A stretch of DNA of 64,000 nt, from NCBI RefSeq assembly GCF_020509005.1, contig NC_063013.1, forward strand, positions 5,580,001 to 5,644,000, given 5' to 3'. Under the pieces are notes generated by a model. That model saw only the letters and a list, made by a program, of their open reading frames with translations. It was not told the origin of the DNA and searched no databases. Shown here one piece after another: positions 13,410 to 53,586 of this stretch (its first letter is position 1; each line of letters opens with the position of its first letter). Source of the stretch: Fulvia fulva (Eukaryota; Ascomycota; Dothideomycetes; Mycosphaerellales; Mycosphaerellaceae). Made by a program: the position numbers and the translations under genes.

Positions 13410-15093
13410 ATGGCCCACTCACGACATCACTCCCAAATGAGCCGACCGACTCCTCAATTGAAGACTGAGCAGTTCGACATGGACTCTTTCTTCGACTTCA
13501 ACCAGGGCGGCAACCAGCCCTCGCCCGTCACAGCCTCCTCATCGCGCACCGACGCCCTGTCGCCATTCGAGAAGGAGGAACAGCAGAAGTTCAATGGCCC
13601 GAGCCACGACTATGGCCAGTTCAAGCAGCAAGTCGGTCTGCCCGTAGGCAGCATGGCGAATATGCCCGTGAATGGCATGTACGACGGCTTCAACTCGGGC
13701 GTCGATGACATGCGCTTCAACTCTGGATTTGGCTGGAACACCGGACTGGACATGGACGCCGATATGGGCATGGACTACGGCAACTCACACACTGCTATGC
13801 CTGCCATGTTCTTCCCGCCCAACGACAGCCCGGCAGACAACTACGTCAACCCAAACAGCGTCGGCGGCCACGAGGAGCCACCAAGCAACGTAGGCCGCCT
13901 CTGGCCTGGCATGCACTCACAACAGGCTCAGCAAGCTGCCATGCAGAAGGCTGCCCAGGCGCAAGCCGTACAGCAACGCCAATTGAAACTGCAAGCCCAG
14001 CAGGCCCAGTACCGCCAAGTCGCCAGTCAAAGTCGATCAAGCCAAGGCTCGTCTCAACAGACACATGGCAACGGCAAGCGTGCATCGCATGCTTCTGAGC
14101 CACACGTCGAAGAGTCTATCTCCCGTCTGCTTAACCAGATGCGCCAGAACAGCCACTCTGTGCCGGATGGCGATGACGCTGACTCGCCGGGCAACATGCT
14201 GCCTCACATCGCACGCATGAAGAAGGATGAAGAGGAGATGGATGAGGATGAGCGCCTTCTCGCATCAGACGAAGGCAAGAAGCTCTCCAGCAAGGAGCGC
14301 AGACAGCTGCGGAACAAAGTCTCTGCTCGCGCCTTCCGTTCAAGGAGAAAGGGTAAGCTTTGATCGAACGTGCACCCTCACGACACGTACTAACAGCATT
14401 ACAGAATACATTGGCCAGCTCGAAGGCGAGGTAGCCATGAAGGCCCAGGAGAGCAATGTTCTTCGACAGGAGAACCAGGCACTTCAGGCAGAGAACGAGC
14501 GTTACCGTGGCTTGATCGAGACTCTCCTTCGCCACCCAGCGTTCACGCCATTCATCAACGACATCAGCCAGGACCCTTCGGTGCTACTACCCAAACAGCA
14601 CCAGCAGCAACGTCAGCAGCTACAGCCATCCGTTGCTCCCACTCCTCAACCTCAACCAGCGCAACCCCACCAGCAACAGCAACAATCGCAACCGGACGTG
14701 AAGCCTGAGTACCTCAACTTCGATGCATCACTGCTTCAGATTCCACAGTCACAACCAGAGCAGCAGAAGCAGCAGCAGCAGCAGGTTGGCCTCGCCATGA
14801 TACCGGAGAACGATTTCAGCAAACTCAATATCAACGGCTTCAATGCGATGAACTTTCAGGCTCGGTTCAACAGCGTCAATGCCTACGCGGTGACAGAGCT
14901 AACAAGTGGGCCTGATCCTGTCGAGCTACTCATCGAATCGCCAATCCGCCTGCCATGCTCCGCCTCTGCTACCTCTTCTACTGCCTCGCCTGCCACCTGC
15001 TCTGGCGCCTCGAACGACTCTTCTCTGAATGTACTACTGGCCAAGCTCGATTCCGCCGCGAAACGAGTTTCAGCCGACTCACTATACTGCTAG
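13410..15093 (+). CDS. bZIP transcription factor, MeaB-like
   Basis: Two exons, 13410-14352 and 14405-15093; the 52-nt intron carries a perfect TACTAAC branch site at 14388. 543 residues with start at 13410 (alternative ATG 13437, MSRPTPQLKTEQ). The basic region KLSSKERRQLRNKVSARAFRSRRK is interrupted by the intron and continues EYIGQLEGEVAMKAQESNVLRQENQALQAENERYRGLIETLL, a leucine zipper. RPSVAPTPQ-type and polyglutamine-rich stretches follow (QQQQQ near 14770), then a C-terminal block with AVTELTSGPDPVELLIESP. The extended N-basic motif NKVSARAFRSRRKEYI and the C-terminal block resemble the fungal MeaB group, which takes part in nitrogen regulation; the assignment to that group is from memory and moderate. 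Confidence 0.8.
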
Positions 15094-34801: not shown

Positions 34802-36562
34802 ATGCCTTTCCTCAAGCGCACAGAGCGGGAGGCCCAACATGCCAACCAACTCGAGAAGACGGCATCTCCTGAGCCAGTTGGTGGCAAGGTAACATTCATG
34901 GCAGTGTACCTAGGACTGGTCGCCAGTATTGGTGGCTTCATGTGAGTCTAGCATGGGCAAGTCTACGAGAGCTCCGTTCGCTGAAAGCATCACTCCAGTT
35001 TCGGTTACGTCTCTGGTCAAATCTCTGGTTTCTTCGAAATGGCAAACTACGGTCGACGATTCGGGCATGTCCAAAATGATGGTACAATCGTTTTCTCTGC
35101 CGCACGTCAAGGTACCATCACTGGTCTGCTCTGCATCGGATGTCTCTTCGGCGCCCTGATCTCTGGAAAGATGGCCGATGTTATTGGACGAAAGCTTTCC
35201 ATCTCCGCGTCTGCCTTCTTCTGTTGCGTGGGAACAGTAATCGAGATCTCCTCCGAAACCGCATGGTACCAATTCGCCATTGGGCGCCTCGTCAATGGTC
35301 TTGGAATTGGCGCTCTGTCAGTGCTTGTGCCAATGTACCAGTCGGAAAGCTCGCCTGCCCGCATTCGTGGTGTGCTGGTGTCATCTTACCAGCTGTTTAT
35401 CACTCTCGGTATCTGGACTGCGGAGATGGTCTGCTACGGCACTCACAATATGGCCAGCACTGCATCATGGCGCATCCCCAATGGTCTGTCATTCCTGTGG
35501 GCCCTGATCCTCGGTGCCGGTATCCTGTTCCTCCCAGAGTCGCCTAGATACGCATACAGAGTTGGTCGTGAGGACGAAGCTCGCACTACCATTGCGAGAC
35601 TCGGCGGTCTTGCACCAGACTCACGTGAGGTCAACATCTTGGTCAACGACATCCGTGTCAAGCTGGACGAGGAGCATGCCGGAGGTGTTGCTAACTGGCA
35701 CGAGTTCCTGACGGGTCCACGCATGTTCTACCGTGTGGTCCTCGGTATCGTACTGCAAGCAGGTCAGCAACTCACAGGCGCCAACTTCTTGTAAGCAAGC
35801 CCTTCTCCAAATCGAACATGTCTTGGAGACGCGCAAGCTAACGTCACCTCTAGCTTCTACTATGGGACCACGATCTTCAAGGCCACCGGCCTCAACGACA
35901 GCTACGTTACACAAATCATACTGGGAACAGTCAACGTTGCATGCACTTTCGGTGGCCTATACGTAGTGCAGAAGTGCGGTCGTCGCAACGCGCTCATGGT
36001 CGGCGCTGCATGGATGTTCATGTGCTTCATGGTCTACTCCTTCGTCGGCCACTTCGCTCTCGACCAGAACAACCCTCAGGCGACCCCGGCTCCAGGCAAC
36101 GTCCTCATCGTCTTCTCTTGCCTCTTCATCGCTGCTTTCGCCACTACCTGGGGACCGATTGTGTGGGCTGTGGTCGGTGAAATGTACCCATCGAGGTACC
36201 GCGCTCCATGCATGGCCCTCGCTACCGCATCCAACTGGTTATGGAACTTCTTGATGTCATTCTTCACCCGCTTCATCACGGACGCCATCGACTACCTTTA
36301 CGGTCTGGTCTTCGCTGGATGCTGTCTAGCACTTGTGATTATCGTGTTCTTCTTCGTCATTGAGAGCAAGGACAGGTCGCTGGAGGAGATTGACACCATG
36401 TACGTGCTCAAGGTCAACCCGATAACCAGTGCCAAGTGGGATGGAAGCCAGGTACCAAAAGAGCCAGACAGTGGATTCACCAGCGGCAGGAACAGCAGCG
36501 ACGCTGAGAGAGCGGCCGGTGCTCCGGTTGAGCGCGTGCCAACAAAGACTCTGGAAGAGTAA
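34802..36562 (+). CDS. MFS sugar (hexose) transporter
   Basis: Three exons, 34802-34941, 34999-35790 and 35854-36562, with introns of 57 and 63 nt; 546 residues. Plasma-membrane proton symporter or facilitator of the fungal sugar-porter family. Signatures: GGFIFGYVSGQISGFFEM across the first intron, GKMADVIGRKLSI, GRLVNGLGIGALSVLVPMYQSESSPARIRG (the PESPR-paired loop), FLPESPRYAYRVGREDEA, GIVLQAGQQLTGANFFFYYGTTIF across the second intron (QQLTG is the sugar-contact motif), GRRNALMVG and WGPIVWAVVGEMYPSRYRAP. The C-tail is Ser/Glu-rich and cytoplasmic. Substrate (glucose, or other hexose or pentose) cannot be fixed by eye. Confidence 0.9.
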
Positions 36563-44487: not shown

Positions 44488-47050
44488 ATGGCTCCCCCAA
44501 ACCCTCAGCAGCCATACAACCGCAATATAAGACCCACACTGCGAGGTCCTCAGCGATACGACGGCGCCGGTGAGCGGCAGATACAACAGGCTGGTCGGTC
44601 AGCAACGAACCTCAATGCGCAGGCCTCAGCGCAGTCATTCCGGGAAGCCTCACGGCCCGGCTCTACGGACAGAGTACCACAGGTCCTACCACAGTCGCCC
44701 TCAGAGCACGACAGCAGACAGCTAGAAACATCAGACCTATCTCCATCATCACCATCATACCAAAGCGGTCCAGTCTCACCCTACGCACCTCCCGTGTCCT
44801 CGCCGTTGAACCCGACGCCGTCGAACTCAAGTGGAGGCAATGAGAGCAGAAAGGGCAGCCATGGCAGTGCCGGCAATGTCACAGAGCCGTCAAGTCCTGT
44901 GGAAAGCAGAACTGCGGTGGCAGCAGCGGCGAGCTCGTCACTTCCATCGGGTGCACAAACGCCTTCCCAGCCCTTGCTGAGACCTCCAGAAATGTCGCAC
45001 AACGATTCAACGACAAGTCTGGCGCGAGTGTCTACGCCTCGATCGGTGCGGGATCTGGGAACGGACTACGATCGATACTACAACCCATTCGCTACACAAA
45101 ACAACTCGAGAAACAACTCGCAACTAGACCTATCGTCATCTTTACCACGATATAATTCCTCCTCGCAACTGCATGCACAAGGTGCAGTCACTCCGGCTGA
45201 TTTGGCGTCACGGCTTTCGAATCCGTTCAGAGACAACAAACGAGCGTCGAACCCGTTTCTTTCAGCGAACAACACAGAACCGTGCACTCCGGCACCCGAG
45301 AGGGACTATCAAGAGAAGTCCGATGCTAAGGCTCCGGTGGTTGGCGTGACTGCAATACCTCCTAGGAGCGGGACACCAGTCTTTATCAGCAACGCTGATC
45401 CAGAAAAAGTACCCTTCTATCCTTGGGTGGACGATCGGCTTAGTGCGCCGAACCAGTACATGCTTTATGCCGACCAGAAAGAGGACGACGATGACATGCA
45501 TATGCCAGCTTGGGACGACGACAAGAAGTTCAAGCCAACATTGAGGGAACGATTCAACAAGGACAACATTATCAACACGATTGGTATGATCTTCCTGTTG
45601 ACAGGGTTGTTCACAGTCTTTATCATCCTGCCTGTGGTGTCATACACCGGTACGAGCTTGATTCCTTACAGCTACGAGACGCCGCTGGACCAAATGCCTG
45701 GCTACGGTGATGAATCCCAAGCATGGGCGCATGTGAATGACAAGAGTTATCCTCTACTCACAAACATCAGGACCGGCTTGATTGATCCAGACACTCCATC
45801 TTCGGCTAAGACTCGCAAGAGTACTGATGGAGACGATCTTGTTCTGGTCTTCAGCGATGAGTTCAATGAGAAGAACAGGACCTTTTACCCTGGAGATGAT
45901 CCATACTGGTTCGCACCAGACATCTGGTATGGTGCCACGCAAGATCTTGAGTGGTACGATCCAGATGCCGTCAACACTGGTAGGTTTTGTATGACAAGCC
46001 TCTTTTTCGCCATCGCTGACTTTCCTCGCAGGCGGCGGCACTTTACAGCTCCAGCTTGACGCCTTCAACAATCACGGTCTTCAGTACAGGTCAGGTATGC
46101 TGAATTCTTGGAATCAGCTATGCTTCAAAGGCGGCGTCTTTGAAGTGTCCATGAGTCTGCCAGGACCCGCTGGTGTGCATGGCCTGTGGCCAGGCGCTTG
46201 GACGATGGGCAATCTTGGCCGACCAGGCTACCTTTCCACAACGGAAGGCATGTGGCCATATACTTATGACAGCTGTGATACCGGTATCACACCAAACCAA
46301 TCTATGACCGATGGCACGAGTTTTCTGCCTGGCCAAAGGTTACCCAATTGTGCTTGCTACGGCGAGGACCATCCGACTCCAGGGACTGGTCGTGGCGCAC
46401 CTGAAATCGATATCGCCGAAGTCAGCGGAGATTGGGGAGGTTTGGGAGTAGGAGTTGCGACGCAGTCCTTCCAGGTCGCGCCGTTTGACATCTTCTACTA
46501 CCCAAACTACGAGTTCATGGAGACACCGCATTACCAGTTCAGCTTCGTGAACACCTACACTGGAGGTCCTTTCCAGGAAGCTGTATCAACGACAACGATG
46601 CTGAACAACGACTGGTATGATGGCAAAGCATACCAGAAGTATGCCTTCGAGTATGTGCCTGGAGGAGATAAGAAATCCCACATTACATGGTTCGTTGGCG
46701 ACGATGAGATGATGAAGTTCGACGCTCGAGCTATTGGTCCCAATGGCAACGTTCAACAGCGTCTGATCGCCGAGGAGCCTTTGTCTATGATCCTCAATCT
46801 GGGGTTCTCCCATAGTTGGGTTAACATCGACATGGCCAACCTCCGCTTTCCGACGGTCATGAGGATCGACTATGTTCGGTGGTACCAGAAGCCAGGAGAT
46901 GAAATGGTTACATGCGATCCTCCTGGCTACGAAACGACCGACTACATCCGCAGACATCCAGCGGCATACAACAATCCCAACTACACACGATGGGAAGACG
47001 CGGGCTACTCATGGCCGAAGAACACCCTCGTGCACGACTGCAAAGGGTGA
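44488..47050 (+). CDS. KRE6/SKN1-type beta-1,6-glucan synthesis protein (GH16 fold)
   Basis: Two exons, 44488-45979 and 46032-47050, intron 52 nt; 836 residues. Type II membrane protein of the secretory pathway needed for beta-1,6-glucan in the fungal wall. A Ser/Pro-rich cytoplasmic N-terminus of about 360 residues precedes one transmembrane helix (NTIGMIFLLTGLFTVFIILPVVSYT). The lumenal GH16-like domain includes LVFSDEFNEKNRTFYPGDDPYWFAPDIWYGATQDLEWYDPDAV, GLWPGAWTMGNLGRPGY and the catalytic-type motif APEIDIAEVSG, with SMILNLGFSHSWVNID and MRIDYVRWYQ near the end. An in-frame ATG at 44455 would add 11 residues; 44488 has the better context. Confidence 0.93.
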
Positions 47051-52515: not shown

Positions 52516-52705
52516 ACTCACTACCAGGAATCGAACCTCTGAACAGACGTTAGGAGAAGTTCCATCAGTGACCGTAAAATCAACTTACGGGTTCCCGGAA
52601 TGTTGATTGAATCAATCAGAATCCTATGTGATGACTGGCGAAGACTGTTAGCTACATATCGAAACAGATTGTAACAACTCGACTTACCCGCTACACTATA
52701 AAAAC
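52516..52705 (-). pseudogene. tRNA-Gln(CTG)-like copy with three introns, decayed
   Basis: Same layout as the copy at 52773-52963. Exons: 52688-52705, 52616-52634, 52589-52600 and 52516-52538 (72 nt spliced). Introns: A 52635-52687 (53 nt, GTAAGT...GCTAAC...CCAG), anticodon-loop insert 52601-52615 (15 nt), B 52539-52588 (50 nt, GTAAGT...CCTAAC...TTCAG). Splicing of B restores a perfect T-stem CCAGG/CCTGG around TTCGATT. The acceptor stem pairs poorly (1-72 G-G, 4-69 T-T) and the anticodon stem has an A-G clash at 28-42, so the copy is probably not functional. Intron A lies two bases earlier in the D-loop than in the other copy. Confidence 0.8.
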
Positions 52706-52772
52706 TCGGCTGCTCGAAGACGCTGTATAAGAGTGCAAAAAGAACAATGACAAGCTGCGCTTATTGGTACTG

Positions 52773-52963
52773 AGGTCGTACCAGGAATCGAACCTCTATA
52801 TAGGATATCAGTGGTACTCCCGGCGGCAAGGAAGAGGAACACGAACGGGTTCCCGGAATATCATGACTGGGCGTCAGAATCCGATGTGATCTAAGGCGAC
52901 GTTAGGCAACGGTCAAGGCAATCAGGGCATTGTTGCTACTTACAACCGCTACACTATACAACC
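52773..52963 (-). tRNA. tRNA-Gln (anticodon CTG) with three introns, two of them GT-AG
   Basis: Exons at 52944-52963, 52874-52890, 52847-52858 and 52773-52795 splice to 72 nt that fold as a perfect tRNA: acceptor GGTTGTA/TACGACC (all seven pairs, one G-T), position 8-9 TA, D-arm GTGT-AGCGGTT-A-TCAC, anticodon stem TCGGA/TCCGG with loop TTCTGAT (anticodon CTG), variable GAAC, T-stem CCAGG/CCTGG with loop TTCGATT, discriminator T. Sequence identity elements match fungal tRNA-Gln (TATAGTGTAG, ATCACATCGGATTCTGA). Intron A 52891-52943 (53 nt, GTAAGT...CCTAAC...TTAG) sits in the D-loop; a 15-nt insert 52859-52873 is at the canonical 37/38 site; intron B 52796-52846 (51 nt, GT...TATAG) splits the T-stem after position 50. 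Box A (52946-52956) and box B (about 52784-52794) are intact but about 155 bp apart; a T5 run follows at 52737-52741. Confidence 0.9.
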
Positions 52964-53334
52964 GCATTGTTGATGAGTATAACCCCTCTTTTGGGCTGCG
53001 GTGAGATGAGGCAGCAAGACTGCTTGGTATTTATATACCCGGTTGATTAGGTAATGCGACTGAAGATCTACTTCAATACATACCTTTGTTAATGGGCCGA
53101 GGATGTTCCAGACGGCGGCGAGGTGCTCAGCCTCACGGGAAAGAATAACGAAGAGTCGCCATGGATTCTATGTGTCAAGAAGCAAATTTTGGCCAAGTAG
53201 GGAGAGCTATACTGAGCTGTGCAGAACTTTGCTCGATCAAAAACTCTCGGCGCACTGAACATGATTTGGGAGTTTCGTCGACCCAGCAGGTTTGCCAGGC
53301 TTGCGTCTTTGCTGCCGTTGACTACGACCACATA
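52964..53334. other. Intergenic upstream of the tRNA-Gln gene
   Basis: About 370 bp between the tRNA-Gln 5' end and the MITE. A TATATAAAT-like stretch (minus strand, near 53027-53036) lies about 65-70 bp upstream of the tRNA start. Confidence 0.4.
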
Positions 53335-53491
53335 ACATCTGCAAGGGCCACTTCGGATTCTCATCACTTCGGAAGCGTCGCCAAGCGCACGGGTAACTCC
53401 TCTCACGACCAGGATGAAATTGCTGGAATAGCGGCGTACAGGTCGATACGCTACCGAAGTGATGAGAATCCGAAGTGACCCTTGCAGATGT
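53335..53491. mobile_element. Miniature inverted-repeat element (MITE) of 157 bp
   Basis: Two inverted arms of about 44 bp begin ACATCTGCAAGGG at 53335 and, on the other strand, at 53491. They differ at only about two positions (C/T after AAGGG, A/T after ACTTCGG). The arms contain a direct motif CACTTCGGATTCTCATCACTTCGG. A TA dinucleotide borders each end (53333-53334 and 53492-53493), as expected for the TA target duplication of Tc1/mariner-type elements. About 70 bp of unique sequence lies between the arms and no transposase is encoded, so it would need a helper in trans. Confidence 0.85.
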
Positions 53492-53586
53492 TAATGTAAA
53501 GCATACATGGAGAGCGGCACTGACAACGTTGCGAGCTATATGATCATTTCTATCGTTCGAGCGACGACCATGTGATGACAACTGCG

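Follow-up and report, generated by a model that had tools for sequence, protein, structure and literature searches.

Introns of nuclear tRNA genes are normally single, lie between positions 37 and 38 and are cut out by a dedicated endonuclease. Introns of the mRNA type are known in the U6 snRNA genes of some fungi, and spliceosomal introns are also known in the nuclear rDNA of ascomycetes; a 1993 study reportedly described an mRNA intron in a fungal 18S rDNA. Moreover, archaea and the red alga Cyanidioschyzon have tRNA genes that are permuted or carry several introns, with bulge-helix-bulge motifs. In our literature search, which covered titles and abstract openings of open-licence papers other than preprints, no report of spliceosomal introns in nuclear tRNA genes was found among the matches listed. 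The words 'tRNA' and 'introns' are also absent from the main text of the Cladosporium fulvum Race 5 assembly paper (PMC9453070).

Here we analysed a window of 64,000 nucleotides from the genome of the tomato leaf-mould fungus Fulvia fulva (Cladosporium fulvum; contig NC_063013.1, positions 5,580,001 to 5,644,000), which carries a tRNA-Gln(CTG) gene interrupted in three places, once at the canonical position and twice by segments with GT and AG ends. From the anatomy of this gene, its splice signals, the conservation of its paralogues and the recurrence of the same arrangement in the genome, we conclude with high confidence that such segments are probably spliceosomal introns of the U2 type, lying in nuclear tRNA genes of Pol III-like character that would be matured by the spliceosome together with the tRNA endonuclease.

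The tRNA-Gln(CTG) locus

An earlier note on this DNA had described the gene without giving its strand. The parse into exons and introns places it on the minus strand (Table 1), with the intron lengths, the borders, the CTG anticodon and the CCAGG/CCTGG T-stem all as the note had them. Once the three introns are taken out, the four exons (20+17+12+23) give a mature cloverleaf of 72 nt, which scores 20.75 in our parser, is called tRNA-Gln(ctg) by ARAGORN and is folded into a cloverleaf by RNAfold (-20.5 kcal/mol). In contrast, the unspliced window yielded no tRNA with ARAGORN and none with Rfam at the gathering threshold, which agrees with the claim that the unspliced locus is not a tRNA.

A degenerate tandem copy of the gene, whose outer limits were judged by eye, as were the mismatches in its stems, has two GT-AG introns of its own. 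The acceptor and anticodon stems of this copy are broken, and it is probably a pseudogene. Upstream of the tRNA gene lies an inverted repeat, possibly a small transposon. Elsewhere in the window, the Elp2 protein has 80% identity to that of Dothistroma septosporum.

Table 1. Features of the tRNA-Gln(CTG) locus, in window coordinates
Feature	Position	Strand	Length	Remarks
tRNA-Gln(CTG) gene	52773..52963	-		
Exon 1	52944..52963	-	20 nt	acceptor 5' strand, positions 8-9, D-stem, start of D-loop
Intron A	52891..52943	-	53 nt	in D-loop; GTAAGT...CTAAC...TTAG; 45/53 identical to counterpart in L024
Exon 2	52874..52890	-	17 nt	remaining D-arm and anticodon arm up to position 37; anticodon CTG
Canonical-position tRNA intron	52859..52873	-	15 nt	between 37 and 38; not GT-AG
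Exon 3	52847..52858	-	12 nt	anticodon stem 3' strand, variable loop, first T-stem bases
Intron B	52796..52846	-	51 nt	within T-stem after position 50; GTTCGT...CTGAT...ATAG; 38/52 aligned columns identical to counterpart in L024
Exon 4	52773..52795	-	23 nt	remaining T-arm, acceptor 3' strand, discriminator T
TTTTT run, putative Pol III-type terminator	52737..52741	-		31 nt past the gene
Degenerate tandem copy	52516..52705	-		probable pseudogene
First intron of tandem copy	52635..52687		53 nt	GTAAGT...CTAAC...CAG
Second intron of tandem copy	52539..52588		50 nt	GTAAGT...CTAAC...CAG
Upstream inverted repeat	53333..53378 / 53448..53493		46-nt arms	2 mismatches; arms ~70 nt apart

Split tRNA genes in the genome

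The genome (67,169,167 bases in 14 contigs) was searched with our own parser, which takes out up to four GT..AG segments and then scores the resulting cloverleaf; score, threshold and filters are likewise our own. Among 411 anchors in 124 loci, 40 scored 18 or more: 26 were accepted with GT-AG removal, three with removal were set aside, and 11 reached the score without removal. Together with L021 and three genes from small fetches, the 26 make at least 30 tRNA genes; their GT-AG introns number 54 and measure 49-62 nt. The earlier note had proposed to look for other tRNAs with such introns, and 29 further genes were found. The 30 genes, which span 18 anticodons standing for 13 amino acids, carry one GT-AG intron in 10 cases, two in 16 and three in four; the last are Phe (L067), Leu(CAA) (L027), Ser(CGA) (L037) and Asp(GTC) (L030), each with an intron at 37/38 in addition.

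In 27 of these genes the GT-AG introns fall between positions 9 and 64, with 36 of 48 in the D-arm or the T-arm. Nearly all the tested genes (26/27) also have an intron at 37/38, of 6-33 nt as parsed and with GT..AG ends in none. ARAGORN called all 27 spliced sequences; it called just six of the 27 unspliced ones, four of them with a different anticodon. Some of the exons that lie between introns have, as parsed, only a few nucleotides, with 4 nt in L105 and 8 nt in L021; such a size is unusual for spliceosomal substrates and counts against the spliceosomal reading.

Note that this catalogue is a biased sample and not a census: the loci were drawn from matches to B-box and terminator patterns, an unbroken T-loop TTCRANNC was a requirement, and the analysis covered 59 of the 71 places of one search and part of the 119 matches of another. 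The first version of the parser, used for the main catalogue and for the end-dinucleotide control, took in only tRNAs with a 37/38 intron. A later version, used for the shuffle control, also admits tRNAs without one and recovered L021; for this gene, in contrast to the others in the catalogue, candidate segments were prefiltered for GTNNG or CTRAY. In the later run L090 obtained its top score (19.78) without GT-AG removal, its intron having been prefiltered, and we retained the earlier split reading. The borders of five introns (L030-1, L044-1, L031-2, L126-1 and L127-1) were shifted by hand by 2-3 nt to match paralogues.

A genome search with RF00005 returned 22 places, namely 14 ordinary tRNA genes (the number found by this search and ARAGORN), six repeat copies (L013-L018), L021 and L022. 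It was dropped as a census because it scores just its best candidates and misses split genes. We also joined ten spliced tRNAs into one query, which gave four first-look candidates and missed the main locus; with so few candidates and that locus missed, its silence carries no meaning, and junction patterns were used instead. An extra ARAGORN call in L001, read once as Pro and once as Ser, was not counted.

Several tRNA-like loci stand apart from these genes. L083 and L108-L113 form a family whose D-arm is similar to GTGCAGTGGT and which also has a T-arm GTTCRANTCG and a T-run. Several members have a CAYRTGAGG-like stretch in common, and the family has no clear anticodon arm or branch site; these loci may represent another intron arrangement, pseudogenes or a SINE. 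Six of them were left out of the counts by hand, as was a further tRNA-like locus, L071: L109, L110 and L112 passed the score only by removal of GT-AG segments that contain no branch site, L113 passes it without any removal, and L071, L083 and L108 scored below 18. In a second tRNA-like family (L079, L119, L122 and L123), most members have GTTGTGGTCCAAT near the 5' side and a GAGTTCRANTCTCGCC-like stretch near the 3' side. A tRNA-Trp(CCA)-like gene of 115 bases, which includes a 41-nt insert, is present in six copies (L013-L018), each on a different contig; five are identical and one has a single difference, and L013 adjoins sequence that by eye resembles a retroelement. Finally, L019 was read as a tRNA Ile(GAT) with an anticodon-loop intron of 63 nt lacking GT..AG ends. 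The GAT anticodon is unusual for nuclear Ile in eukaryotes.

Splice signals and controls

The GT..AG ends were required by the search and are therefore present in all 54 introns, whereas GTNNG, CTRAY and YAG were not, except for one of the first two in L021. GTNNG starts 51 of the 54 introns, CTRAY begins 13-16 nt before the intron end in 49 (the remaining five have TTAAC, CTTAC or TTGAC at the branch position), and 49 end in YAG. For comparison, the corresponding frequencies in a background of 8736 further GT..AG segments, taken from these loci, are 24%, 9% and 44%, the CTRAY value being counted over a wider range, -30 to -9. Thus, the tRNA introns have the extended 5' consensus and the branch motif at a fixed distance from the 3' AG that distinguish U2-type introns.

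Two controls bear on the parser itself and speak against a chance result. When the windows were Markov-shuffled with the anchor kept, 0 of 2055 reached 18, with a maximum of 17.3. With the first parser version, removal of GT..AG segments rebuilt 15 of 147 anchors at 18.5 or more; the 255 other pairs of end dinucleotides gave 1.58 on average and 6 at most.

The earlier note had also claimed that the tRNA introns equal the local mRNA introns in length (48-57 nt). This could be checked in part. As ab initio scanning for mRNA introns gave a noisy result, with 28 candidates of 48-148 nt, we used in its place three introns of protein genes in the window, placed between conserved protein stretches: 35791-35853 (63 nt), 14353-14404 (52 nt) and 45980-46031 (52 nt). 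They have the same signals as the tRNA introns, and the first is longer than the range claimed.

Introns outside 37/38 could in principle also be cut by the tRNA endonuclease at bulge-helix-bulge motifs, in the manner of archaea and Cyanidioschyzon, where several introns per tRNA at such positions do occur. We consider this extremely improbable here. The 4-bp central helix that this structure needs (intron positions 2-5 with -6 to -3) is complete in 0 of the 54 introns, where 0.07 would be expected by chance, and cutting of this kind explains neither the shared GTNNGY, CTRAY and YAG signals nor why the introns vary so little in length. The signals thus favour spliceosomal removal of the GT-AG introns, and the introns at 37/38 would presumably be left to the tRNA endonuclease.

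Identical exons and diverged introns

Contig C8 carries another Gln(CTG) gene, L024, which is identical to the window gene at 72 of 72 mature bases, while its introns have diverged, at 13 of 15 matching positions in the 15-nt intron and as given in Table 1 for the other two. The same was seen in other families. The Glu(CTC) genes L055 and L106 match at 72/72 mature positions, compared to 33/56 and 33/54 aligned columns in their introns. Five Gly(GCC) genes match at 71/71 in all five pairs compared, and a T-stem intron is present in four of them and missing from L010. The Arg(ACG) genes L059 and L107 match at 72/72, with an intron at position 9 in L059 only; finally, the Phe genes L067 and L125 have introns at 30 and 53 in common, and one at position 10 is found in L067 only. 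Exons that remain identical while the introns between them diverge point to selection on the spliced product, and the Gln(CTG) pair is a case of this.

If the split genes were instead tRNA copies disabled by insertions, functional intact genes should exist elsewhere. In this respect the genome was negative: a 28-base pattern for the Gln(CTG) D-loop junction had no genome-wide match at up to 3 mismatches, and no junction-intact Phe, Glu(CTC) or Gln(TTG) copy was found under the same conditions. As a positive control, the Gly(GCC) T-arm junction retrieved precisely the single known intact copy. Hence no intron-free tRNA-Gln(CTG), which the earlier note had proposed to look for, was found with an unbroken D-loop junction that differs from the pattern at 3 positions or fewer; this search is blind to intact genes with more than 3 differences in the stretch covered by the pattern, and such a gene would escape it. 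In favour of disabled copies, the tandem copy does have broken stems, and some tRNA-like families of the genome gave no clear parse. Still, the main gene shows neither lost pairing nor an intact copy elsewhere, the diverged paralogues keep identical exons (72/72, 72/72 and 71/71), and the splice signals are kept, so that we regard interrupted pseudogenes as a very improbable account. The best reading continues to be that of the earlier note, spliceosomal-type introns plus a canonical intron at 37/38 and hence two splicing systems, in view of the identical exons and diverged introns of L024, the 29 further genes and the absence, within the scope of that search, of a copy whose D-loop junction is intact.

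The polymerase

A run of four or more T lies within about 65 nt downstream of all 27 genes examined. For ten of them a TTTTTG pattern had been the sole route of discovery; the remaining 17 had not been selected for a T-run, and the run is present in 17/17 of these, compared to 8% of random stretches of the window, which fits transcription by Pol III. TTTTTG is recurrent downstream of tRNA genes. A TATA motif between about -77 and -45 was seen in 17 of the 27 genes and in 5% of random window stretches. Note that the uninterrupted B-box core present in all genes proves nothing, since it was a requirement of the search.

The earlier note had suggested that the tRNA might be Pol II-derived. The genes could then be read by RNA polymerase II, for instance within longer mRNA-like transcripts, spliced co-transcriptionally and the tRNA released later. 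Spliceosomes do normally act on Pol II transcripts, and several genes have introns inside or beside the A-box region. Against this stand the T-runs after all 27 genes examined, including the 17 unselected ones. The suggestion is unsupported, and we give it very little weight. Transcription of the split genes by Pol III thus remains the preferred reading.

Other Pol III genes were also inspected. No intron interrupts the one U6 match (101 bp) or any of the 18 5S matches found; the spread of introns thus seems to concern tRNA genes and not Pol III genes at large.

A proposed route to the mature tRNA

From these features we infer the polymerase, the splicing itself, the order of the steps and a functional Gln(CTG) gene as follows. 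RNA polymerase III would most likely transcribe the gene, giving a precursor that measures about 190 nt without its leader and trailer. Both GT-AG introns would then be taken out by the spliceosome through intron definition, using the 5' splice sites GTAAGT and GTTCGT and the branch sites CTAAC and CTGAT, which lie 15-16 nt before the intron end. As the cloverleaf is predicted to form only after this removal, the tRNA endonuclease could cut the 15-nt intron at 37/38 only then, and RNase P, RNase Z and CCA addition would complete tRNA-Gln(CTG).

How the introns may have spread

The earlier note had also raised recent, introner-like insertion, and the results may favour this in one part and not in another. 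In the tRNA-Glu(CTC) gene L127 (C5:1957010-1957310), intron 1 (position 22) and intron 2 (position 52) are homologous, with z 7.8 when the splice signals are held fixed, which points to copying of an intron from site to site or to conversion between the two. However, most of the tRNA introns are dissimilar to one another: of the 1431 intron pairs just 7 have a z of at least 5, five of them within the Glu genes and two formed by introns that paralogues carry at one position, and the many near-identical copies that characterize introners were not seen among the 54. In Gly, Phe and Arg, gene copies whose mature sequences agree differ in whether they carry a particular intron, which suggests recent gain or loss.

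Taken further, we lean towards a broader proposal: that the spread of spliceosomal introns has reached most nuclear tRNA genes of Fulvia fulva, and perhaps of its family, Mycosphaerellaceae, and that these introns can copy between tRNA positions. For the supply of many tRNAs, including every parsed Gln, Phe and Glu(CTC) gene, the spliceosome would then have to work on Pol III transcripts ahead of the tRNA endonuclease, and spliceosome activity would set the decoding capacity of the cell.

Discussion

Both the intron type and the class of precursor described here are known, and what we rate as new is their combination on a genomic scale. With up to three spliceosomal-type introns per gene, mostly in addition to the one at 37/38, the spliceosome and the tRNA endonuclease would share one small RNA. 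It thus becomes testable whether spliceosomes routinely handle Pol III transcripts and how they cope with exons of a few nucleotides. Moreover, because the same mature sequence occurs with and without a given intron in Gly, Phe and Arg genes, the way in which introns are gained also becomes accessible to experiment.

There is a practical consequence, as gene finders miss split tRNA genes: 21 of the 27 tested were not called by ARAGORN in their unspliced form. In a study that took its tRNA sets from tRNAscan-SE, the fit between codons and tRNAs in Passalora fulva was S = -0.011, compared to 0.513 by the codon-adaptation index, and Zymoseptoria tritici had 11 codons without an isodecoder tRNA (PMC5315462). 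Missed split tRNA genes may explain part of the low S and of the missing isodecoders; note that the table of that study also gives S values close to zero for some fungi that are not related (PMC5315462).

How, then, do these introns compare with the systems already described? They resemble the U2-type introns of fungal mRNAs in having GTNNGY, CTRAY 13-16 nt before the end, YAG and a length of about 50-60 nt, and differ from them in their hosts, which here are tRNA genes whose D-arm, T-arm and other positions they break. Canonical introns at 37/38 are present as well in 26 of the 27 tested genes, but the 54 GT-AG introns sit elsewhere and have branch sites. As with the introns of fungal U6 genes, they would be spliceosomal introns in a Pol III RNA gene; the host there is U6 and here a tRNA, and the U6 and 5S matches of this genome are uninterrupted. 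The introns of ascomycete rDNA are likewise spliceosomal introns in structural RNA genes, although those genes are rRNA genes of Pol I and not tRNA genes. Introners offer a parallel in suggesting a copying route, for which the two homologous introns at different positions of L127 are the example, but the tRNA introns are not a near-identical copy family (7/1431 pairs at z of 5 or more). Finally, the multi-intron tRNAs of archaea and Cyanidioschyzon also combine several introns per tRNA with odd positions; those have the bulge-helix-bulge, while in the introns described here its central helix was not found, and their signals are those of the spliceosome.
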